Under the pieces are notes generated by a model. The model did no database searches. It saw only the letters and a list, made by a program, of their open reading frames with translations, and was not told the origin of the DNA. From positions 1 through 64,000 of the forward strand of contig NZ_JOIU01000035.1 of the NCBI RefSeq assembly GCF_000720135.1: a stretch of 64,000 nt of DNA. The letters are read 5' to 3'. The first letter of the stretch is position 1. The number at the start of each line of letters is the position of its first letter. Position numbers and translations under genes: made by a program. Source of the stretch: Streptomyces sp. NRRL S-1022 (GTDB taxonomy: Bacteria > Actinomycetota > Actinomycetes > Streptomycetales > Streptomycetaceae). Shown here piece after piece: positions 3,780 through 35,695 of this stretch.

Positions 3780-5885
3780 TCAGTAGCGCAGGCGCCTGGC
3801 CCGCAGGAGCATGAACAGGCCGGACAGGGCGAGCAGCGTGCCGATCGCCCCGGGCCACAACCGGGCTCCCGTCTGCGCCAAGCCGCCCTGTGCGGCCTGG
3901 GATCCGGAGCGCGCGGACGACGGCGGAGCGAAGGCCGCCGCGGTGACCTGGCCGGGAGCGGAGGAGGCGGGCACAGAGGAGACCGGCGCGGAGGAGACGG
4001 CTGCGGAGGAGACGGGCGCGGACGGGGAAGGCGTCGGGCGGCCCGCTGCCGAACGAGCCGGCGTGACACGGGGACGGGCGGACTCGGCCGGTGCGGCCTT
4101 GTCGTCCGTGTCGTGCTTGGTGGTGCGGGCCGGTGCGGTCGTCGCGTCGTGGCGCGGTACCTCGGCGGACCGGGAGGCCGCGGGCGGCGCGGAGGCGGAG
4201 GCGCCGCTCCGGCCGGGCTGCCCGGCGGAACCGTCACCGGGCTGCGCACTGGAACCGTCGCCGGACTGCTGGGCACCGCCGTCGCCCGGCTGTTCGGTGG
4301 AACCGTCACCGGGGGCGGCGGAGCCCGGACTCGCGGTGGGAGCCGCGGTGGGAGCCGCCGTCGTACCGGAGCCGTCCCCGGCCGAGGGGCCGCAGGTGCG
4401 GCCCGTGTTGATGCAGTCGACCATCTCGCGCATCAGGTCCTCGTCGAAGACGTTGATGAAGTCGCCGTGGTCGGTGACGGGCTTGTGCAGCTGTTCCGGG
4501 AAGGAGTCCACCGCGAACAGCGGGACCGTCCGGCCGCCGTCCGCGAGGCTCGGCGCGTCGACGTCGTAGACGATGCGCTGGACCAGCTGGGGAATGGGCC
4601 GGAAGCCGGCCGGGCAGGAGCCGTCGACGGCGGTGAAGGCCACGTGGGTCCGGTGGTTGGCGCTGTCGATGTTGCGGCCGTCCCAGCAGCTCTGGAACCG
4701 GAAGGTGCGCACGACGTCGCTGCCCCGCGGGCACAGCGGGTACTTGTCCTTCAGCTGCCGGTCCTCGTAACCGGTGCAGCTCCAGGAGGCGTTGGCGTTG
4801 CCGGGGCCGTTGACGAAGGCCTTGGCGTCGCCGGTGATGATGCGCAGCAGGCGCGGCATGGCCGTGACCTGGCCGAGCGGGTTGCCGACGAAGGTCAGCG
4901 TCACCTGCTTGGGCGTCACGATCCGGCCCGCGTTGCCCTCCGTACCGCCGCCCGGCGCCCCGGCGTCCCGCTCCTGGGTGCCGTTCTGCAGGCGCAGCAC
5001 CGGCCAGTAGTACGTGGACCTGTCACCCTGGTCCACGCAACTGGTGCCGGCCTGCGCCAGGTCATCGTCGCTCGCGAACGCGTTGTTCGCCTGGTTGCCC
5101 ACGTAGTCGTGGAAGTGGTGGGCGCCGTTGGAGACGCCGGGGGCGACGATGACGTTGTCGGAGTTGAACAGGCCGTTCGCGTTGACCCCGCAGTCGGAGG
5201 TGAAGGTGCCGCGCGAGGCGCCGGCCTGCGGCGGCGGGGCCGGTGCGGCGGGCGGTACGGCGGTGATGTCCGCGTAGTCGGAGACGACGGGCCCGTTGCC
5301 GCCCTGCCCCGCGCCGCCCTGGCCCGTGCCGGTCTGCCCCTGCCCCGCGCCGGTCTGCCCTTGAGCGTCGCCGCCCTGCCCGCCGTCACCCGCCGGCGTG
5401 CCGGTGGCCTGGCCGGTGTCGCCGGGGCGCAGGGTGCAGGCGGCCAGGGAATCCAGGCCCTGCGGACGCTCCCCCGCCCGGTCGATGGCGTCGGCTATCC
5501 GCCCGATGGACGCCGACCGCTGCTCCTTCAACGGCTGCATGATCGTGGCGTCGAGGGAGCCGGCGTCCGGGCCGCCGGCCTGCTGGAGCTGTCGGTAGGC
5601 CGCCGCCGTCTGCTGGTCGAGGCGGGCGAGTTCACGGTCGACGTCCGCGCGGGCCGCGTCCGGTACGGCCGTCAGCCGGCCGCCGACGTCGGGGCAGTCG
5701 ACGGTCGCCATGCCCGTGGACCGGACGTGCCCGGTGGTGTCCGTACCGGAACCGTCACCCCAGCCCTCGCTGGCCGAGGCATAGACGTTCGCCGCCACGA
5801 GCCCGGCGCCGCCCAGCATCAGGGAGACCGCGGCGAGGGTCGCGCGTCGTGCGCGGGTCGGGCGTCTGCGGCTGTTGCGTACCAA
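3780..5885 (-). CDS. DUF1996 surface protein with LAQTG sortase sorting signal
   Basis: The 701-residue product has a basic, hydrophobic signal peptide (RRATLAAVSLMLGGAGLVAA). An alpha-helical stretch rich in Gln/Ala follows (about 75-150), then a Gly/Gln-rich linker. The DUF1996 domain covers about 225-470, with its typical HFHDYVGN, SCWDGRNIDS and FINVFDED segments. After it come about 200 residues of Ser/Pro/Ala/Gly linker and, at the C-terminus, LAQTG, a hydrophobic helix and the basic tail RARRLRY. LAxTG is the signal for class E sortases in Streptomyces, so the protein is predicted to be joined to peptidoglycan with DUF1996 displayed outside. DUF1996 is of unknown biochemical role. No sortase gene is in the window. 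The gene is monocistronic, ended by the hairpin at 3729. Confidence 0.9.
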   Translation of the reverse strand: MVRNSRRRPTRARRATLAAVSLMLGGAGLVAANVYASASEGWGDGSGTDTTGHVRSTGMATVDCPDVGGRLTAVPDAARADVDRELARLDQQTAAAYRQLQQAGGPDAGSLDATIMQPLKEQRSASIGRIADAIDRAGERPQGLDSLAACTLRPGDTGQATGTPAGDGGQGGDAQGQTGAGQGQTGTGQGGAGQGGNGPVVSDYADITAVPPAAPAPPPQAGASRGTFTSDCGVNANGLFNSDNVIVAPGVSNGAHHFHDYVGNQANNAFASDDDLAQAGTSCVDQGDRSTYYWPVLRLQNGTQERDAGAPGGGTEGNAGRIVTPKQVTLTFVGNPLGQVTAMPRLLRIITGDAKAFVNGPGNANASWSCTGYEDRQLKDKYPLCPRGSDVVRTFRFQSCWDGRNIDSANHRTHVAFTAVDGSCPAGFRPIPQLVQRIVYDVDAPSLADGGRTVPLFAVDSFPEQLHKPVTDHGDFINVFDEDLMREMVDCINTGRTCGPSAGDGSGTTAAPTAAPTASPGSAAPGDGSTEQPGDGGAQQSGDGSSAQPGDGSAGQPGRSGASASAPPAASRSAEVPRHDATTAPARTTKHDTDDKAAPAESARPRVTPARSAAGRPTPSPSAPVSSAAVSSAPVSSVPASSAPGQVTAAAFAPPSSARSGSQAAQGGLAQTGARLWPGAIGTLLALSGLFMLLRARRLRY

Positions 5886-27348: not shown

Positions 27349-28296
27349 TCACAGGGCCTTGCGGCGCACCAGCACCGCCAGCACCAGCAGACCGGGAAGC
27401 AGCGGCAGCCACACGGTCAGCAGCCGGTAGCCGAGCACCGCGGACGCGGCGGCGGCGCCGGGGGTGCCGGCGGCGGTGAACGCGAGGGCCAGTGCGGCGT
27501 CCAGCGAGCCGAAGCCGCCCGGTGTGGGCAGCAGCGCGGCGGCGCTGCTGGCGGCGAGGTACAGCAGGACGACCTGGAGCGGGGCGAGGGGCAGACCGAC
27601 GGCCCGGGTGACGGCCACGAGGACCAGGGCGTGCAGCAGGGCGAAGGCCACGGAGCCGCCCCACAGAGCCGCCGCGCGGACCGGGCAGGCGTGCAGCGCG
27701 CGGATGTCGGCCAGGACGGCGGCGAGCGGCCGCCGGCAGCGCGGCCACAGGGGGCTGGCGAGCAGGACCGCCGCGAGGGCGGCGACGCCCACGGCGACGG
27801 CGACCGCCGCCAGGGAGAAGCGCGGGAGGCGCAGCAGGCCCGGGCAGGCCGGGGCGAGCAGCGCGATCAGCGTCAGGCGGGCGGTGGCGCCGGCGGCGGC
27901 CTTGACGGCGAGCGCGCCGGCCGAGCGCCCGGCCGGCAGCCCGCAGCGCATCAGGAACCGCAGGTTCACCGCGCCCGCGCCGAGCCCCGCGGGCAGCAGG
28001 TGGTTGGCGGCGGAGGCGGCGAACTGGGCCGCGACCAGCCGGGGTCCGGGCAGCCGCGGGACGACGGCGCCCTGCTGGGCGAGCGCGGAGGCCGCCCAGG
28101 TGCCCAGCGCCGCCGCCGCGCCGACCAGCAGCCAGCCCTGGTCGGCGACCGCCAGCCGTCCGGCCCCGCTCTCGACGGCGGGCCAGTGCCGGCGGGCCAG
28201 GTACACCGCGCCGAGCAGGAGGACGAGGCAGACGCCGGCCTGCCAGCGGGCGTGCCGGCGGCCGAGGGTGGGGGCGAGTCCGGCGGGCGCCGTCAT
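27349..28296 (-). CDS. Flippase-like integral membrane protein (LPG-synthase transmembrane domain)
   Basis: The 315-residue product has about eight hydrophobic helices and the hallmarks of the lysylphosphatidylglycerol-synthase TM/AglD superfamily: an ASAANHLLPAGLGAGAVNLRFL loop, a second ALLPTPGGFGSLDAAL loop (the conserved P-x-P-G-G-x-G-x-x-[DE]), and YRLLTVWLPLLPGLL. It lacks the soluble aminoacyl-transferase domain of MprF. Members are proposed lipid-linked-sugar or lipid flippases. Its ATG overlaps the stop of the GT-C gene (ATGA), so both are coupled. It may flip what the GT-C protein makes or uses; this is inference. Confidence 0.82.
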   Translation of the reverse strand: MTAPAGLAPTLGRRHARWQAGVCLVLLLGAVYLARRHWPAVESGAGRLAVADQGWLLVGAAAALGTWAASALAQQGAVVPRLPGPRLVAAQFAASAANHLLPAGLGAGAVNLRFLMRCGLPAGRSAGALAVKAAAGATARLTLIALLAPACPGLLRLPRFSLAAVAVAVGVAALAAVLLASPLWPRCRRPLAAVLADIRALHACPVRAAALWGGSVAFALLHALVLVAVTRAVGLPLAPLQVVLLYLAASSAAALLPTPGGFGSLDAALALAFTAAGTPGAAAASAVLGYRLLTVWLPLLPGLLVLAVLVRRKAL

Positions 28297-29861
28297 GAGC
28301 CGGCGCCCGGTACGGCGTAGTAGATCCGGACCGTGCCGGCGGGGACGGACCGCCAGGCGCGGGCGTAGCCGGGCGGCGCGGAACCGGTCGGCACCAGCAC
28401 GGCGACCGGCGTGTGCCGCGCGGCCCCGGCGATGCCGTCCTCGGTGGCGTTGGCGTTGGGCCCGGCCGTCGCGGCCGAGCCGCAGCCGGCGGCGAAGGCG
28501 ACCGGCAGGGCCTCGTGGCCGGCGACCAGGCAGGGCGGGCGCACACCGGTGCGGCGCAGTGCGGCCGCGGTGCGCGTCCACTCCCGGTGGGCGGCGGTGG
28601 TGTGGCCCACGGTGTGCAGGAGCACGGCGAGCTGCACCGCGAGGTGGGCGGCGAGCCCGGCGCAGACCAGCACCACGGCGACCGGACGGACGGCCGGGCG
28701 CGGGGCCGGGGGCAGGGCCGGGCGCCGGGGCAGGTGCGGGAGCAGGAGCGGGGCGGTGCGCGGGGTGGAGCGCCGGGGCCGGCGGGGTGCCCGGGGCGGG
28801 GCGGTCGTCAGATGGAAGAGGGCGTCCGCGACGGGCACGGCGAGCAGGGCGTAGGCCGGGAGGAGGAAGCGGGGGGCCGCGTAGCCGATCAGGAAGAGGT
28901 AGGGGAAGGCGGCGGTCGCCGCGCAGCCGAGCGGGAGTGCCGTGGCCGTCGTGCGCCGGGTGCGGACGGCGACGGCCAGGGCGAGCGCGGCGAGCAGCGG
29001 CAGGGTGAACCACCAGAGGGTGAGCAGCGGGTGCGGGAGGGCGCCGGTGCAGGGCCGGCACAGCGTGCGCCCGCCCAGGCTGCGCAGCTGGTCCACGACG
29101 GCGACGTGCCAGCCGAGACCGCCCTGGATCGCCGAGGCCTCGGACAGCCGCCGCGCCAGGCCGCCGTAGCCGGTGTACGCCTCGATCACCCACTCGGCGG
29201 CTCCGGCGGCGAGCCCGGTGAGCAGGGCGGGCAGGGCATGCCGGCGGTGGCGCGCCAGAGCGAGGACGAGCAGGGGCAGAGCCGCCCAGACCGCGTCCAC
29301 CGGCCGCATCCACGCCATGAGTGCCGCGCTGCCCGCCAGCCCCCACAGGGCGCCGGGCCCGGTGCGGGAGCGCAGGAAGCAGCCGGTGGCGGCCAGGGCG
29401 CCGACGGCTACCCAGTAGTTGGGCATGGCCTGGGGGCCGTAGAACAAGGTCACCCAGAGGGAGGCGAACAGGGCGCCGCCGAGGGCGAGGACGCGGGCGG
29501 GGAACAGTCCGCGCCAGGCGCGCAGGGCCAGGTACAGGGCGAGCCCGGAGAGCAGAGCGAGGTGGACCCGCAGCAGGGGGGTGGACGACGACCAGGACGC
29601 GATGGGCGCGACCAGCAGGGAGATGCCCCGGGCACGGGGTGCGCTGAAGAAGGACGCGGGGGCGTGGCCGCTGACCTGGCTGACGTACACCGTCTCGTCC
29701 CAGCCGAGGCCCATCCCGGGCCGGACCAGGACGAGTTGGGCCACGGTGAAGGCCGCGGCGACGGCCGCGAGCGGCCAGGCGGTGCGTGGCGGGCCGGCGG
29801 ACGGGCGCCGCGCACGCGCACGGCTCGCCGTGGCGACTGCCGCGTGCGCACTGCCGGTCAT
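28293..29861 (-). CDS. GT-C fold polytopic glycosyltransferase-like protein
   Basis: The 522-residue product has about eleven hydrophobic helices. After the first comes the acidic loop GMGLGWDETVYVSQVSG, the 'DE' motif of GT-C enzymes (GT39/GT83 type) that use polyprenyl-phosphate sugars. A short Arg/Pro-rich cytosolic loop lies near 350-385 and the C-terminal ~110 residues form an extracytosolic domain. Donor and acceptor are unknown. It is the first gene of a coupled operon with the flippase-like protein. Two CCCTAC-N5-GTAGGG dyads lie 17 and 44 bases upstream of its ATG, matching the one before the blaI-type gene. Confidence 0.78.
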   Translation of the reverse strand: MTGSAHAAVATASRARARRPSAGPPRTAWPLAAVAAAFTVAQLVLVRPGMGLGWDETVYVSQVSGHAPASFFSAPRARGISLLVAPIASWSSSTPLLRVHLALLSGLALYLALRAWRGLFPARVLALGGALFASLWVTLFYGPQAMPNYWVAVGALAATGCFLRSRTGPGALWGLAGSAALMAWMRPVDAVWAALPLLVLALARHRRHALPALLTGLAAGAAEWVIEAYTGYGGLARRLSEASAIQGGLGWHVAVVDQLRSLGGRTLCRPCTGALPHPLLTLWWFTLPLLAALALAVAVRTRRTTATALPLGCAATAAFPYLFLIGYAAPRFLLPAYALLAVPVADALFHLTTAPPRAPRRPRRSTPRTAPLLLPHLPRRPALPPAPRPAVRPVAVVLVCAGLAAHLAVQLAVLLHTVGHTTAAHREWTRTAAALRRTGVRPPCLVAGHEALPVAFAAGCGSAATAGPNANATEDGIAGAARHTPVAVLVPTGSAPPGYARAWRSVPAGTVRIYYAVPGAGS

Positions 29862-29877
29862 GGACCACCCCTCCGTC

Positions 29878-29894
29878 CCCTACAGGTCGTAGGG
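29878..29894. promoter_or_regulatory. BlaI-type operator, site 1
   Basis: CCCTACAGGTCGTAGGG is a perfect six-base dyad around a five-base spacer, 17 bases upstream of the GT-C gene start. The TAC/GTA halves fit the BlaI/MecI/CopY repressor class. Confidence 0.7.
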
Positions 29895-29904
29895 CCCGAC
29901 GCCA

Positions 29905-29921
29905 CCCTACGGCCTGTAGGG
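29905..29921. promoter_or_regulatory. BlaI-type operator, site 2
   Basis: CCCTACGGCCTGTAGGG has the same perfect arms as site 1 and starts 27 bases after it, placing both on nearly the same helical face 2.5 turns apart. Confidence 0.7.
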
Positions 29922-30005
29922 CCGAGGGAGGGAGCCGGGGAACACGGCTCAACCTAACCCGGACCACCCGGCGATGCCCGGCTGACGGGGCCAACCGGCC
30001 GACGG

Positions 30006-30022
30006 CCCTACGCGCTGTAAGG
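30006..30022. promoter_or_regulatory. BlaI-type operator, site 3
   Basis: CCCTACGCGCTGTAAGG matches sites 1 and 2 in eleven of the twelve arm positions. It ends seven bases before the ATG of the BlaI-type gene, so bound repressor would also block the regulator's own expression. Confidence 0.68.
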
Positions 30023-30029
30023 TTGGGGC

Positions 30030-30413
30030 ATGGCTGGCACAGGGTCCCGCGGCAGGGCGGAGCGGCGCAGCGCCGGGGCGCTGGAGAGCGAGGTGCTGGC
30101 CGCGCTCTGGGCCACCGAGCGGCCGCTGACACCGGCCGAGATCCAGCACGGGATCGGGGGCGGCCTCGCCTACAACACGGTCCACACGATCCTCAAACGC
30201 CTGTACGACAAGGGGCTGGTGCTGCGGGACGCCGACGGGCGGCGCGGCGCGTACCGGCCGGCCAAGAACGCGGCCGAGCTGACCGCGCAGGCGATGCACG
30301 AGGCCCTGGACCGGGGGCCGGACCCGATCGCTGCGCTCCAGCAGTTCGTGACCGGGCTGAGTGCCGAGGAAGAGCGGGCGCTGCGCGAGCTGCTCGCCGG
30401 AGGCGGCGTGTGA
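30030..30413 (+). CDS. BlaI/MecI/CopY-family repressor
   Basis: The 127-residue product has the Penicillinase_R fold: GALESEVLAALWATERPLTP, AEIQHGIGGGLAYNTVHTIL (recognition helix), KRLYDKGLVLRDADGRRGAY (wing) and a C-terminal dimerisation helix region AALQQFVTGLSAEEERALRE. Such repressors are inactivated by proteolysis triggered by a membrane M56 protease, here encoded 41 bases downstream. Three dyads in the divergent intergenic region are its likely targets. Because of site 3 the translation signal is embedded in an operator and no strong Shine-Dalgarno is seen (GGTTGGGG only). Confidence 0.9.
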   Translation: MAGTGSRGRAERRSAGALESEVLAALWATERPLTPAEIQHGIGGGLAYNTVHTILKRLYDKGLVLRDADGRRGAYRPAKNAAELTAQAMHEALDRGPDPIAALQQFVTGLSAEEERALRELLAGGGV

Positions 30414-30454
30414 GGCCGGGCCCATGAGCGGAAGCGGACGGTGAGGTACGGCGC

Positions 30455-31348
30455 ATGAGGTTCGCTGTGTACGCCCCGCTGGTGCTGTCGCTGCTGTTGT
30501 CGGCGCTCGCTCCCGTGCTCGCCCGGCGGGCCGAGCCGGCGCTCGCCGCGCGCGTGCTGGCCCCGGCCGCGGTGCTCACGGCGGCGGCCACCGTGTGGTC
30601 GCTCGTGCTGCTGGCCGCCGCGCTGCTCGGGGACGTGCCGCCGCTGGTGCGCGAGGCCCGGGAGGACGGGCGTCCGTTCACCGATCCGGTGCCGGAGGCG
30701 ATCGGGCTCGCCGCGTGCCTGGCGCTGGCGGTCGTCGCCCTGCGGCTGCGCCGGGCCGTGCGGGCCGAGCGGAGCACGCGGCGGGCGCTGCGACGGCTCG
30801 CCGCGGGGCAGCCGGGGGACACCGAGCTGATCGTCGCCGCCTCCGAGGTGCCGCGGGCGTTCGCGATCCCGGGCCGGCCGGGCCGGATCCTGGTGACCTC
30901 GGCGATGCTGGGTGCGCTGGGGCCCGCCGAGCGGCGGGTGCTCCTCGCGCACGAGCGGGCCCATCTCACGCACCGGCACGGGCTGGTGGTGACGGCGGTG
31001 ACGCTCGCCGCGGCGGCCGATCCGCTGCTGGGTCCGGTGCGCACGGCGGTCGTCTTCCTGGTGGAGCGCTGGGCCGACGAGCGGGCGGCGGCCGCGGTCG
31101 GGGACCGGCGGGTGACGGCGCGGGCACTGGCCCGGGCCGCGCTCACCGCGGGCCGCACCGGCACGGTGTGCGCCCTGCAGTTCACCGACCGGGCGGTCAC
31201 CCGCCGCATCGCGGCCCTGCAGACCGGCCCGCCCCCGTTCCTGTGGCCCGTCGCGCTGGTCGCCCTCGCCCTCGGCACGCTCCCGGCGCTCCTCGCCGCC
31301 GACGCCACCGGCGACCTGCTGGGACTGCTCTCCGCCATGCTCGACTGA
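30455..31348 (+). CDS. M56-family integral membrane metalloprotease (BlaR1/MecR1-like, no sensor domain)
   Basis: The 297-residue product has two or three N-terminal hydrophobic helices, the zinc motif HERAH (166-170) in VLLAHERAHLTHRHG, a downstream glutamate in VERWADERAA that fits the third ligand, and a C-terminal helix. The penicillin-sensor domain of BlaR1 is absent, as in most actinobacterial M56 proteins, so the signal is unknown. It is encoded directly after the BlaI-type repressor and is expected to cleave it or a partner on induction. GGTGAGG precedes the ATG. Confidence 0.87.
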   Translation: MRFAVYAPLVLSLLLSALAPVLARRAEPALAARVLAPAAVLTAAATVWSLVLLAAALLGDVPPLVREAREDGRPFTDPVPEAIGLAACLALAVVALRLRRAVRAERSTRRALRRLAAGQPGDTELIVAASEVPRAFAIPGRPGRILVTSAMLGALGPAERRVLLAHERAHLTHRHGLVVTAVTLAAAADPLLGPVRTAVVFLVERWADERAAAAVGDRRVTARALARAALTAGRTGTVCALQFTDRAVTRRIAALQTGPPPFLWPVALVALALGTLPALLAADATGDLLGLLSAMLD

Positions 31349-31876: not shown

Positions 31877-34231
31877 TCAGCCGTTGTTGGGGCTGCGGTG
31901 CGGGGGTTGTTCGGGGGTGGGGCGGCGGGTCACCGGTGGTACCGCCCGCACGGCCGGCTCGTCGGTGCTGACGGTGAGCGGCTCGCCGTGGTGGCTGAGC
32001 CGCAGCGGCGGGCCGTCCAGCAGCGCGTACGTCACCTTGTCCGCGCCGATGTCGACCCGCAGCCGGCGCCCGCGGAACTGGACGTGGAAGGCGAGCCGGC
32101 GCAGCCGCTCGGGCAGGCGGGGCGCGAACCGCAGCCGCTCGCCGTCGCGGCGCATCCCGCCGAAGCCCGCGACCAGCGCCATCCAGGTGCCGGCGAGCGA
32201 GGCGATGTGGAGTCCGTCCCGGGTGTTGTGCTCCAGGTCCTGGAGGTCCATCAGAGCGGCCTCGGAGGCGTAGGCGTAGGCCAGGTCCAGGTGGCCCGTC
32301 CGGGCGGCCATGACGGCCTGGCAGCACGCGGACAGGGAGGAGTCGCGGACGGTCAGCGGCTCGTAGTAGGCGAAGTTCCGGGCGATCTGCTCCTCGTCGT
32401 ACCGGCGCTCGAACCAGTCGCCGCAGGTGTACATGGCCAGCACCAGGTCGGCCTGCTTGACGACCTGCTTGCGGTACAGGTCGAAGTAGGGGAAGTGCAG
32501 AAGCAGCGGGTACTGGTCGGCGCGGGTGCCGTCGAAGTCCCAGCGCTGGTAGCGGGTGAAGCCGGCGTGCTGCTCGTGAACGCCCAGCTCCTCGTTGTAG
32601 GGGACGTGCATGGCTTCGGCGGCGTCCCGCCAGTCCGCGCTCTCCTCCTCGTCCACGCCCAGCCGCCGCGCCTCGCGCGGATGGCGTTCGACGGCGTCGG
32701 CCGCGGCCAGCAGGTTCTGCCGGGCCATCAGGTTGGTGTACGTGTTGTCGTCGGCGACCGCGCTGTACTCGTCGGGGCCGGTGACGCCGTCGAGGTGGAA
32801 GACGCCGTGCCGGTCGTGGTGGCCCAGCGACCGCCACAGCCGGGCGGTCTCCACCAGCAGCTCCACGCCGGTCTCCCGCTCGAAGGCGGTGTCGCCGGTG
32901 GCCTCGACGTACCGGACGACGGCGTCGGCTATGCCGGCGTTCACGTGGAAGGCGGCCGTGCCGGCCGGCCAGTACGCGGAGCCCTCCGGGCCGGCGATGG
33001 TCCGCCAGGGGAACGCGGCCCCGGCGAGCCCGAGCTGGGCGGCGCGTTCACGGGCCTCGTCCAGGGTGTTGTACCGCCAGCGCAGCGCCTCGGCGACGGC
33101 CTGCGGCGCGGTGTGGGTGAGCACGGGCAGCACGAACATCTCGGTGTCCCAGAAGGCGTGCCCGTCGTAGCCGGAACCGGTCAGTCCCTTCGCCGGGATG
33201 GCGCGCTGCTCGGCGCGGGCACCGGCCTGCAGGACGTGGAACAGCGCGAACCGGACCGCCTGCTGGATCTCCTCGTCGCCCTCCACCTCGACGTCCGCGC
33301 GGGCCCAGAAGTCGTCCAGACAGGCCCGCTGGTCGTCGAGCAGGCCCTGCCAGCCGTCGTGGCCGGCGGCGGCGAGCGCGGCGTCGACCTGGTCGGCCAT
33401 CGCGGGCAGCGACCGGGCACCCGACCAGCCGTGGGCGACCAGCTTCTCCAGGCGCAGCGTCTGTCCGGGCTCCAGCACGGAGGTGACGGTCAGCCGGGCG
33501 ACGTCGATGCCGCTCTCGCTGCGGGTGGTGGTGCGTTCCGGGCCGGTGACGGTGTGGTCGGCGGCCACGGCGACCCGCAGGCCGCTGCGCCTGGTGCGGT
33601 GGACCATGCGCAGCCGGGTGCCGGAGGCGAAGTGGTCCTCCTGCTCCAGCGGGCTCTTCAGCGCCCGCGCCGCGCGCGGGTCGCCGTCGGGCTCGGGCAG
33701 GCTCTCGTTGGCGACCAGCTCCGACTGGATCACCACCCGGCTGCGGCTGCCGACGGCCTCCACCTCGTAGGCGACGGCGGCCACCGCCCGCTGGGTCAGC
33801 GACACCAGCCGGGTGGAGCGCACCCGGACCGTCGAGCCGGCCGGCGAGGTCCACTCACAGGTCCGCTCCAGCACCCCGCGGCGCAGGTCCAGGACGCGTT
33901 CGTGGGAGACGAGGCGGCCGTAGCGCAGGTCGAACGGCTCGTCGTCCACGAGCAGGCGCACGATCTTGCCGTTGGTGACGTCGATGACGGTCTGCCCGGA
34001 CTCCGGGTAGCCGTAGCCGGCCTCCGCGTACGGCAGCGGGTGCACCTCGTGGACGCCGTTGAGGTAGCTGCCGGGCAGGCCGTGCGGTTCGCCCTCGTCG
34101 AGGTTGCCGCGCCAGCCGACGTGCCCGTTGGACAGGGCGAACACCGACTCGCTCTGGGCGAGGACGTCGAGGTCGAGGGCGGTCTCGCGGACGGTCCACG
34201 GCTCGACGGCGTACGAGCGGTCGGTGATCAC
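31877..34231 (-). CDS. Glycoside hydrolase family 65 (maltose/trehalose/kojibiose phosphorylase type)
   Basis: The 784-residue product has the GH65 order: an N-terminal beta-sandwich (SVFALSNGHVGWRGNLDEGE, LPGSYLNGVHEVHPLPYAE), the helical barrel with the catalytic acid Glu488 in VTGPDEYSAV, and phosphate-site segments (ARAEQRAIPAKGLTGSGYDG, HAFWDTEMFVLPVL). It should split an alpha-linked glucosyl disaccharide with phosphate, releasing beta-glucose 1-phosphate. The natural partner, a beta-phosphoglucomutase-like HAD, is directly upstream and overlaps by four bases (GTGA). Exact disaccharide specificity cannot be read. The product is cytosolic. Confidence 0.93.
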   Translation of the reverse strand: MITDRSYAVEPWTVRETALDLDVLAQSESVFALSNGHVGWRGNLDEGEPHGLPGSYLNGVHEVHPLPYAEAGYGYPESGQTVIDVTNGKIVRLLVDDEPFDLRYGRLVSHERVLDLRRGVLERTCEWTSPAGSTVRVRSTRLVSLTQRAVAAVAYEVEAVGSRSRVVIQSELVANESLPEPDGDPRAARALKSPLEQEDHFASGTRLRMVHRTRRSGLRVAVAADHTVTGPERTTTRSESGIDVARLTVTSVLEPGQTLRLEKLVAHGWSGARSLPAMADQVDAALAAAGHDGWQGLLDDQRACLDDFWARADVEVEGDEEIQQAVRFALFHVLQAGARAEQRAIPAKGLTGSGYDGHAFWDTEMFVLPVLTHTAPQAVAEALRWRYNTLDEARERAAQLGLAGAAFPWRTIAGPEGSAYWPAGTAAFHVNAGIADAVVRYVEATGDTAFERETGVELLVETARLWRSLGHHDRHGVFHLDGVTGPDEYSAVADDNTYTNLMARQNLLAAADAVERHPREARRLGVDEEESADWRDAAEAMHVPYNEELGVHEQHAGFTRYQRWDFDGTRADQYPLLLHFPYFDLYRKQVVKQADLVLAMYTCGDWFERRYDEEQIARNFAYYEPLTVRDSSLSACCQAVMAARTGHLDLAYAYASEAALMDLQDLEHNTRDGLHIASLAGTWMALVAGFGGMRRDGERLRFAPRLPERLRRLAFHVQFRGRRLRVDIGADKVTYALLDGPPLRLSHHGEPLTVSTDEPAVRAVPPVTRRPTPEQPPHRSPNNG

Positions 34232-34968
34232 TGCTTGCCTCCCAGTTCGGCGAGGTCCTTCACGACGGTGTCGGCGCCGTGTGCGTACAGCGCGTCGGTC
34301 TGGCCGGCCCGGTCCACGCCGACGACGTACCCGAAGCCGCCCGCGCGGCCCGCGTCCATGCCGGCCAGCGCGTCCTCGAAGACGGCCGCGCGGGACGCCT
34401 CGACGCCCAGGTCGCGGGCGGCGGCGAGGAAGGTGTCGGGGCGCGGCTTGCCCGGCAGGTTCCGCTCGGCGGCCACCACGCCGTCGATGCGGACGTCGAA
34501 GAAGTGCTCGGCGCCGACGGAGCGCAGCACGTCCCGGCAGTTGGCGCTGGAGGAGACGATGGCGGTGCGCAGCCCGGCGGCGCGCACCGCCTCCAGGTAC
34601 CGCAGGGTGCCCTCGTACGCCTCCACTCCCCCGGTGCGGATCTTCTCCAGCAGCAGCTCGTTCTTGCGGTTGCCGAGGCCGTGGACGGTCCGGGCGTCCG
34701 GCGGGTCGCCGGGGTCGCCCTCGGGCAGCCGGATGCCGCGCGAGGCCAGGAAGGAGCGGACGCCGTCGGCGCGGGGGCGGCCGTCGACGTACTCGTCGTA
34801 GTCGGCGGAGGTGTCGAACGGCCGTCCCTGTTCGCCCGGGTAGTCGCGCAGGAACGCGTCGAACGTCTCCTTCCAGGCCGCCGCGTGCACGACGGCCGTC
34901 CTGGTGACGACCCCGTCGAGGTCGAAGAGACAGGCCTGGATGGTGTCGGGCAGACCGAGCTGAGTCAT
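34228..34968 (-). CDS. HAD-superfamily beta-phosphoglucomutase-like protein
   Basis: The 246-residue product has the HAD motif I FDLDGVVTRT with both aspartates, a cap domain (about 20-105), motif II IVSSSANC, the Lys in NLPGKPRPDTFL (motif III) and motif IV VFEDALAGMDAGRAG. This is the beta-PGM subfamily, which converts beta-glucose 1-phosphate to glucose 6-phosphate. Coupling to the GH65 gene supports that step. It starts at ATG 34968, divergent from the kinase gene. Confidence 0.9.
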   Translation of the reverse strand: MTQLGLPDTIQACLFDLDGVVTRTAVVHAAAWKETFDAFLRDYPGEQGRPFDTSADYDEYVDGRPRADGVRSFLASRGIRLPEGDPGDPPDARTVHGLGNRKNELLLEKIRTGGVEAYEGTLRYLEAVRAAGLRTAIVSSSANCRDVLRSVGAEHFFDVRIDGVVAAERNLPGKPRPDTFLAAARDLGVEASRAAVFEDALAGMDAGRAGGFGYVVGVDRAGQTDALYAHGADTVVKDLAELGGKQ

Positions 34969-35053
34969 ACCCAGGACTGTTCCCCGTCCGGAGCGCTCCA
35001 GTGAGTGGCGCACGCCACATGCCGCGCGGCCGGGCGGTGACACACTCTGCTGT

Positions 35054-35695
35054 GTGCCGCTGACCTTCGACGACCTCCTCCTCCGCGCCCGTGCCCTGCC
35101 GCGCGGCGGCCGGCGTGCCCTGCTGGGCATCGCCGGCAGCCCCGGCTCGGGCAAGTCGACCCTGGCCGAGCGGCTGGTGGCCGCGCTGAACGGCGACGGA
35201 CCGCCCTGGGCGGCGCAGGTGCCCATGGACGGCTTCCATCTCGCCGACGCCGAACTGGACCGGCTGGGCCGCCGCCTGCGCAAGGGCGCGCCGGACACCT
35301 TCGACGCGGGCGGGTACGCGGCGTTGCTGCGGCGGCTGCGCGAGGAGACCGGCGAAGTGGTGTACGCGCCGGGGTTCGAGCGGGATCTGGAGCAGCCGCT
35401 CGCCGGTGCGATCCCGGTGCCGCCCGGGATCCGGCTGGTGGTGACCGAGGGCAACTACCTGCTGCTGCGGGAGGGTTCGTGGGCGCGGGTGCGGCCGTGC
35501 CTGGACGAGGTGTGGTTCTGCGAGATCGACGAGGAGGAGCGGATCCGCCGGCTGGTCGCCCGGCACGAGGAGTTCGGCAAGGAGCACGCGGCGGCCGTGT
35601 CCTGGGTGCTGGACACCGACCAGCGCAACGCCGACCTGGTCGCGAGGACACGGGAACGCGCGGATCTGCTGGTGCCGGCCGGCGTGCTGAGCTGA
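35054..35695 (+). CDS. P-loop nucleoside/nucleotide-type kinase
   Basis: The 213-residue product has a Walker A motif GSPGSGKST (28-36), the conserved VPMDGFHLADAELDRLG and TFDAGGY segments and VTEGNYLLL (Walker B-like) of the uridine kinase/PanK superfamily. YAPGFERDLEQP is a usual substrate-side loop. It phosphorylates a small molecule with ATP; the family is often labelled nucleoside/nucleotide kinase or fructose transport-linked protein, so substrate is open. The 3' end of the gene is the template for a tandem repeat that starts at the stop codon. Confidence 0.85.
   Translation: MPLTFDDLLLRARALPRGGRRALLGIAGSPGSGKSTLAERLVAALNGDGPPWAAQVPMDGFHLADAELDRLGRRLRKGAPDTFDAGGYAALLRRLREETGEVVYAPGFERDLEQPLAGAIPVPPGIRLVVTEGNYLLLREGSWARVRPCLDEVWFCEIDEEERIRRLVARHEEFGKEHAAAVSWVLDTDQRNADLVARTRERADLLVPAGVLS

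Follow-up and report, generated by a model that had tools for sequence, protein, structure and literature searches.

Background

BlaI-type repressors are numerous in Streptomyces, and to our knowledge what most of them sense and which genes they target is not known. In the BlaI/BlaR1 and MecI/MecR1 systems of Staphylococcus and Bacillus, a repressor of the PF03965 family is encoded next to a membrane zinc protease with an HExxH motif, and divergent control is exerted through tandem dyads. These features are shared by the locus described here, which lies in a stretch of 64,000 nucleotides (the window) from Streptomyces sp. NRRL S-1022, part of contig C35 of an 8.9-Mb genome, and combines genes for a BlaI-type repressor and a membrane protease with two divergent genes for a glycosyltransferase-like and a flippase-like membrane protein. 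From sequence comparisons, we propose that this BlaI/protease switch, devoid of a penicillin sensor, probably controls a regulon for a split MprF and surface glycosylation.

The two halves of S. aureus MprF are reported to function as two separate proteins (PMC2774229). In S. coelicolor, the MprF homolog SCO3397 is described as sigma-E controlled and induced by wall stress, its mutant as sensitive to vancomycin and bacitracin, and a second homolog, Sco6384, as not being a sigma-E target (PMC6767563, PMC3123327). The regulon of M. tuberculosis BlaI is reported to include sigC and ATP synthase genes (PMC8265638, PMC12565901), and a link to cathelicidin resistance is reported for S. aureus BlaI (PMC4549145). 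Searches of an open-access library listed no paper in which an actinobacterial MprF-type gene set is tied to a BlaI protein.

Results

On the plus strand of the window, BLAI (30030..30413) encodes a BlaI/MecI-type repressor of 127 amino acids (PF03965, 76.8 bits, cut-off 22.6) and is followed by a gene (30455..31348) whose Pfam profiles and HERAH motif identify a membrane metalloprotease of the M48/M56 type, 297 amino acids long. On the minus strand, GTC (28293..29861) encodes a membrane protein of 522 amino acids that resembles GT-C fold glycosyltransferases in its predicted fold and matched no Pfam family, and FLIP (27349..28296) a membrane protein of 315 amino acids resembling the MprF flippase (PF03706, LPG_synthase_TM, 90.4 bits, cut-off 33.4); the start of FLIP overlaps the stop of GTC by 4 bases (ATGA). 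An earlier note on this DNA had described a BlaI-type repressor and a protease divergent from a coupled glycosyltransferase/flippase pair, an arrangement that the four genes and their overlap bear out.

BLAI and GTC are separated by a 168-bp intergenic stretch that contains three dyads of the form CCCTAC-N5-GTAGGG. Dyad 1, CCCTACAGGTCGTAGGG (29878..29894), on the GTC side, and dyad 2, CCCTACGGCCTGTAGGG (29905..29921), 27 bp from it, are exact matches, and dyad 3, CCCTACGCGCTGTAAGG (30006..30022), has one mismatch (CCCTAC-N5-GTAAGG) and lies 7 bases before the BLAI start codon. The presence of dyads in front of both units, proposed in the earlier note at 29878, 29905 and 30006, is therefore confirmed. 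They are the only matches in the window at 0-1 mismatch; at up to 3 mismatches the window has 23 matches, a number reached by 99 of 100 shuffles (mean 34.9).

Exact dyads were found at three places only in the whole genome, i.e. the two in the window and C23:48111, which has a 1-mismatch partner 520 bp away at C23:48631. The C23:48111 dyad fronts a gene, hereafter LPGS, for a predicted aminoacyl-phosphatidylglycerol synthase of 594 amino acids (PF09924, LPG_synthase_C, 347.9 bits) whose membrane region is of the LysX type (PF16995). The dyad pair brackets SHORT90, a gene for a small two-helix membrane protein of 90 amino acids, and a gene for a DppA-like M55 D-aminopeptidase starts beyond C23:48631, on the side opposite to SHORT90. 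No BlaI gene was found on contig C23. Because the C23 dyad fronts LPGS, a site shared with the flippase-like half of MprF in the window leads to the synthase half; the two halves are separate genes in this genome, FLIP on C35 and LPGS on C23. The synthase domain of LPGS aligns with solved lysyl- and alanyl-phosphatidylglycerol (LysPG and AlaPG) synthases (4v36, a LysPG synthase, E 1.5e-26), and its hydropathy profile, with 6 predicted helices and the N-terminus inside, would place this domain inside. The closest named relative of LPGS is from S. capoamus (98 % identity, in a listing that may omit records of the genome itself).

A survey covered 150 Streptomyces genomes, including that of NRRL S-1022, whose LPGS locus is designated L001. 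Genomes were called holders if they had a close LPGS, for which identities ranged from 76-100 % and coverage of the protein from 93-100 %. A close LPGS was present in 18 of the 150 genomes, and dyads with at most one mismatch front both LPGS and SHORT90 in all 18; none was found within 2 mismatches at the 12 LPGS paralogs fetched in the same search. A second scan, of named genomes, covered the best 80 of 587 confirmed LPGS loci, i.e. 56 close orthologs and 24 paralogs; the boundary between close and far LPGS was set by identity and chosen after the dyad sites had been seen. Within 1 kb upstream, a dyad with at most one mismatch was found at 53/56 close orthologs (39/56 exact) and 0/24 paralogs, for 0.3 and 0.16 expected, respectively, from mononucleotide shuffles; within 350 bp, the counts were 46/56 and 0/24. 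Most sites follow the pattern CCCTAC[A/G]-N3-[T/C]GTAGGG (CCCTACR-N3-YGTAGGG).

Genome-wide, 38 exact dyads were counted in 17 holders, where the two loci account for 34, and 2 in 21 genomes having neither a close LPGS nor this BlaI. The reversed control pattern gave 22 exact matches in the 17 holders and 22 in the 21 non-holders. In the latter, the exact palindrome is rarer than the control (2 vs 22), which may hint at avoidance or composition effects. One exact dyad (L205 in G040, position 5745), about 22 bp upstream of an open reading frame (ORF) resembling 6-phosphofructokinase by eye, has a centre (CGCCG) that departs from the R-N3-Y pattern seen at most sites and was taken as chance.

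Two further observations concern the surroundings of LPGS. A response regulator and histidine kinase pair lies on its far side (L001:2300-4462), and also occurs in the LPGS loci of 12 of the 17 relatives that have a close LPGS and this BlaI. A sigma-E promoter motif was found upstream of 1/18 orthologs and 0/11 paralogs, with the strict as with the loose pattern (11 of the 12 fetched paralogs were counted, L036 being left out for its truncated locus).

At the BLAI side, a dyad stands between the repressor gene and the divergent gene in 17/17 relatives at up to 2 mismatches and in 16/17 at up to one, and conservation of the dyads in orthologous loci is thus established. The place of dyad 3, abutting the BLAI start, is occupied by a site with at most 2 mismatches in 16/17 orthologous loci, and the divergent-gene side carries one with at most one mismatch in 15/17 relatives. 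All four window genes occur together in 13/17 relatives, FLIP being missing beside BLAI in two and GTC in one. The earlier note had seen a four-gene system here, which holds insofar as the genes keep together in these 13; the predicted regulon extends beyond the four to other places in the genome, and the strongest evidence for it is found in trans, at LPGS and SHORT90.

This BlaI (79-100 % identity) was detected in 22/150 genomes, i.e. in all 18 with a close LPGS and in 4 of the 132 without (G011, G014, G068 and G086), where the BLAI locus is more broken up. Its closest solved chain is 2g9w (E 6e-11), which we take to be M. tuberculosis BlaI (Rv1846c). The genome of NRRL S-1022 encodes five BlaI-type repressors (contigs C44, C9, C4, C33 and C35), and the recognition region AYNTVHTIL of the window protein is identical in 18 aligned orthologs and different in 17 aligned paralogs, the more distant G086 protein having AYNTIHTIL. 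Dyads with at most one mismatch were absent from the neighbourhoods of BlaI paralogs, both in relatives (0/13, of 25 listed) and in the genome itself (0/4); two of the 13 showed a 2-mismatch TCCTAC-N5-GTAGGA site.

These data bear on whether the dyads could serve a different regulator that escaped notice, with BlaI encoded nearby by coincidence. Binding of BlaI to the dyads is itself a prediction, and four of the 22 genomes with this BlaI have no close LPGS, one of them (G011) also having no exact dyad. We nevertheless consider this explanation very improbable, given the site abutting the BLAI start in nearly all orthologous loci, the co-occurrence of BlaI with exact dyads (38 in 17 genomes vs 2 in 21) and the constancy of the recognition region in orthologs; moreover, the CTACA-N3-TGTAG core resembles the TACA/TGTA operators of the BlaI family.

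As a side observation, the cluster for the antibiotic naphthocyclinone includes ncnR1, annotated as a BlaI/MecI-type protein of 127 amino acids, and an M56 peptidase, ncnF; with reported matches in S. humi of 98 % and 95 %, the pair might be a copy of the window repressor and protease (PMC10697411).

The GT-C protein has, by prediction, a GT-C membrane fold: its model (predicted local distance difference test, pLDDT, 75; weak at residues 50-93 and 247-273) aligns with protein O-mannosyltransferases, AftA, ALG9/ALG12, oligosaccharyltransferases, ArnT and Emb proteins. The usual donor for this fold is a polyprenyl-phosphate sugar. The first-loop motif GLGWDE (residues 51-56) is invariant in 31 sequences, including the acidic D55 and E56 of the first outer loop, for which a catalytic role may be suggested. 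The S. capoamus protein is only 86 % identical to that of the window, and we therefore regard S. capoamus as a near but distinct species. Sequence searches found no solved structure matching either FLIP or the GT-C protein. FLIP resembles the flippase half of MprF in both Pfam and NCBIfam profiles; among NCBIfam models it scores highest with that of bifunctional MprF (51 bits, below the cut-off of 600; profile positions 40-300 of 841).

Linkage of the two loci was observed in some strains. In Streptomyces sp. NBC_01669 (L150), everything is gathered in a single locus: two dyads separate FLIP and GTC from a TarS_C1-domain gene (at cut-off, 26.5 vs 26.3 bits), which is followed by LPGS, a dyad, BLAI and the protease gene in that order, so that LPGS lies between GTC and BLAI, LPGS and FLIP still being separate genes. 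In Streptomyces sp. P3 (L178), LPGS stands beside GTC with an exact dyad between them; neither FLIP nor BLAI was found in this 9.8-kb stretch. Dyads also accompany GTC where it lies apart from BLAI: G086 has it (54 % identity) on another contig than BLAI, with two exact tandem dyads at its start, and G068 about 24 kb from BLAI (62 % identity), with one exact and one 2-mismatch tandem dyad. G014 has two exact dyads in the space separating BLAI from GTC.

Within the same regulon, FLIP and LPGS might not be partners, FLIP exporting instead a polyprenyl-linked sugar or glycolipid for the GT-C enzyme and LPGS acting as an independent envelope-stress enzyme. The overlap of FLIP with GTC brings it closer to that gene than to LPGS, 2/17 LPGS genomes have no FLIP next to BLAI whereas G011 has FLIP and no close LPGS, and PF03706 proteins also do other jobs. 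The best NCBIfam score of FLIP, although below cut-off, is nonetheless to the MprF model, LPGS joins the BLAI locus in L150, and the same dyads front LPGS and the FLIP operon, which makes this alternative unlikely in our opinion, and a split MprF the preferred reading.

The protease exceeded the cut-off of PF01435 (M48; 43.1 vs 20.3 bits) and fell short of that of PF05569 (M56; 18.3 vs 31 bits), its database relatives being named partly M48 and partly M56. Pfam detected no penicillin-binding sensor domain in it, and only 17 residues follow its last predicted helix. Of the earlier description as an M56 protease without penicillin sensor, the missing sensor stands and the M56 label is not upheld by Pfam. 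A beta-lactamase switch was rejected, as there is no such sensor and no beta-lactamase gene beside the scanned sites (the rest of the genome was not searched for one).

From the gene order and the HERAH motif, we infer that the protease inactivates BlaI on signal. BlaI could alternatively be freed by a small wall-derived ligand, the protease making this ligand or being dispensable. A gamma-D-Glu-mDAP dipeptide is reported to release BlaI in B. licheniformis (PMC3305447), a DppA-like D-aminopeptidase gene adjoins a dyad in some species, and G016 and G080 have BLAI and the dyads but no protease gene at the locus. S. aureus BlaR1, on the other hand, is reported to cleave BlaI directly (PMC9834060), and a Phe at the apparent BlaR1 cut place, located by eye, is kept in the 18 aligned BlaI orthologs. 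Release by a ligand is thus a possibility worth keeping in mind, albeit on the unlikely side, and cleavage or inactivation by the protease remains the mechanism that we favour.

Additional genes are fronted by dyads in particular genomes. Teichoic-acid-type genes are so in four, including a GT2/TagF-like polymerase gene with an exact dyad in G106, G148 and G077. The neighbours of BLAI in G086 include a GT4 gene and a small gene with 51 % identity to the TarS_C1 gene of L150, with two 2-mismatch sites. These TagF-like and TarS_C1/GT4 targets point to wall glycopolymers. Neither the TagF-like nor the TarS_C1-like gene was retained as a core target. The TagF-like gene (searched at E <= 1e-200 in 28 genomes) was found in 6 holders, of which 3 have an exact dyad at it; the other 3, and 2 non-holders with the gene, have none. 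The TarS_C1-like gene is present in 6/22 genomes, at 8 places, with dyads at one place only. For the M55 D-aminopeptidase gene, likewise set aside, the second dyad keeps with SHORT90 in 17/17 relatives and a full-length gene was found in 5/17; next to the SHORT90 dyad, L090, L095 and L100 have short pieces matching it (best 68-81 % identity), a sign that some species may have lost the gene.

Other neighbouring genes were noticed by eye. After the protease gene, the minus strand of the window (31877-35454) carries ORFs resembling a GH65 maltose/trehalose phosphorylase and an HAD phosphatase, and apparently the same phosphorylase directly follows BLAI in G080 (L081), in the place where the protease gene is missing. 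EfeU/FTR1 iron permease-like genes lie beside GTC in G080 and, accompanied by an EfeB-like gene, between SHORT90 and LPGS in G040 (L097).

Discussion

Gene identities, dyad conservation, co-distribution and linkage in some strains, all established by sequence comparison, argue for a regulon shared by the two loci. The gene identities also support the view, put forward in the earlier note, that the locus is directed at envelope lipid and glycan modification. In the mechanism that we propose, the BlaI-type repressor would bind the CCCTAC[A/G]-N3-[T/C]GTAGGG dyads and repress its own operon with the protease gene, the divergent GTC/FLIP operon and, in trans, LPGS and SHORT90, as well as the D-aminopeptidase gene where present. 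Envelope damage would activate the protease, leading to cleavage or inactivation of BlaI and opening of the whole gene set. LPGS and FLIP would form a split MprF, LPGS charging an inner-leaflet lipid (phosphatidylglycerol or diacylglycerol) with an amino acid and FLIP exposing the charged lipid outside, and the GT-C enzyme would glycosylate a lipid or a wall polymer at the outer face.

Several observations weigh against this interpretation. A first group concerns the sites themselves. In the genome of NRRL S-1022, dyads with at most one mismatch occur at 13 places vs 32 for the reversed control pattern, and because the control gives more places, single near-matches in this genome carry no meaning. 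C27:40373 (inside a carboxyltransferase gene) and C32:45977 (at a symporter and a dehydrogenase gene), both with one mismatch, were accordingly taken as chance and rejected as targets; the further 1-mismatch places comprise C11:111372 and sites on C2, C3, C13, C16 and C20. In the scan of named genomes, 7 of the 53 positive loci have their site between 350 bp and 1 kb upstream, a position at which it may serve SHORT90 or a neighbouring gene instead; L156 and L172 have 2-mismatch sites only, and for L150 the 1 kb next to LPGS contained no site. One holder, G080, has no exact dyad and only 1-mismatch sites, and G011, with BLAI and FLIP and without a close LPGS, has a 2-mismatch site only and no exact dyad in its genome.

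A second group concerns gene content and history. The MprF halves are not strictly paired, FLIP being missing beside BLAI in 2/17 LPGS relatives, the protease gene is missing from the locus in 2/17 (G016 and G080) with BLAI and dyads present, and the D-aminopeptidase has a full-length match in only 5/17. A tree of the recA region of 30 genomes (18 holders and 12 without a close LPGS) groups the holders in a block of 15 and a group of 3 (G040, G024 and G095), with non-holders between; since most holders form one clade, the co-occurrence rests on about two events. As a side observation, G031 gave two recA-family matches of near-equal score (E 8.9e-143 and 1.9e-142). With regard to the putative lipid product of LPGS, actinobacterial relatives make lysyl-diacylglycerol (Lys-DAG) rather than Lys-PG (PMC10580965), and LysX2 has its synthase domain outside (PMC8974105).

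On a broader scale, sensorless BlaI/M56-type switches might regulate envelope charge generally in some of the Streptomyces species, alongside the sigma-E response. They would respond to cell-wall damage, perhaps via wall-derived peptides that the DppA-like aminopeptidase consumes, and would simultaneously raise the positive charge of the membrane through the split MprF and remodel outer glycopolymers through the GT-C enzyme and, in some species, TagF-like and TarS-like/GT4 enzymes. We regard this generalization as speculative and rather improbable. The regulon would be of interest in three respects: a precise operator and a small set of named targets make BlaI-type sensing and control testable in Streptomyces; the proposed natural split MprF would allow synthase and flippase to be deleted one by one; and antibiotic producers may have here a second route, beside sigma-E, for shielding the cell surface against cationic peptides and antibiotics that act on the wall.

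This predicted regulon is well supported; compared with known systems, its novelty resides in the form of BlaI control and in the organisation of MprF, and not in a new kind of system. Unlike BlaI/BlaR1 and MecI/MecR1, it has no penicillin-binding sensor, its predicted operator is CCCTACR-N3-YGTAGGG, and the genes that it is predicted to control modify the envelope and lie partly in trans. The M. tuberculosis repressor, the closest with a solved structure, also has a regulon extending beyond beta-lactamase; its target genes are different, and no lipid aminoacylation gene appears among them in the accessible parts of the sources (PMC8265638, PMC12565901). SCO3397, compared here by its description, is annotated as a lysyl-tRNA synthetase and is sigma-E dependent, whereas LPGS has BlaI-type dyads. 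As in MprF, flippase (PF03706) and synthase (PF09924) domains are both recognised by Pfam; MprF is one bifunctional polypeptide, whereas the domains here belong to separate genes, which occupy two loci in the genome of NRRL S-1022 and are joined by shared dyads, the synthase having a LysX-type membrane region.

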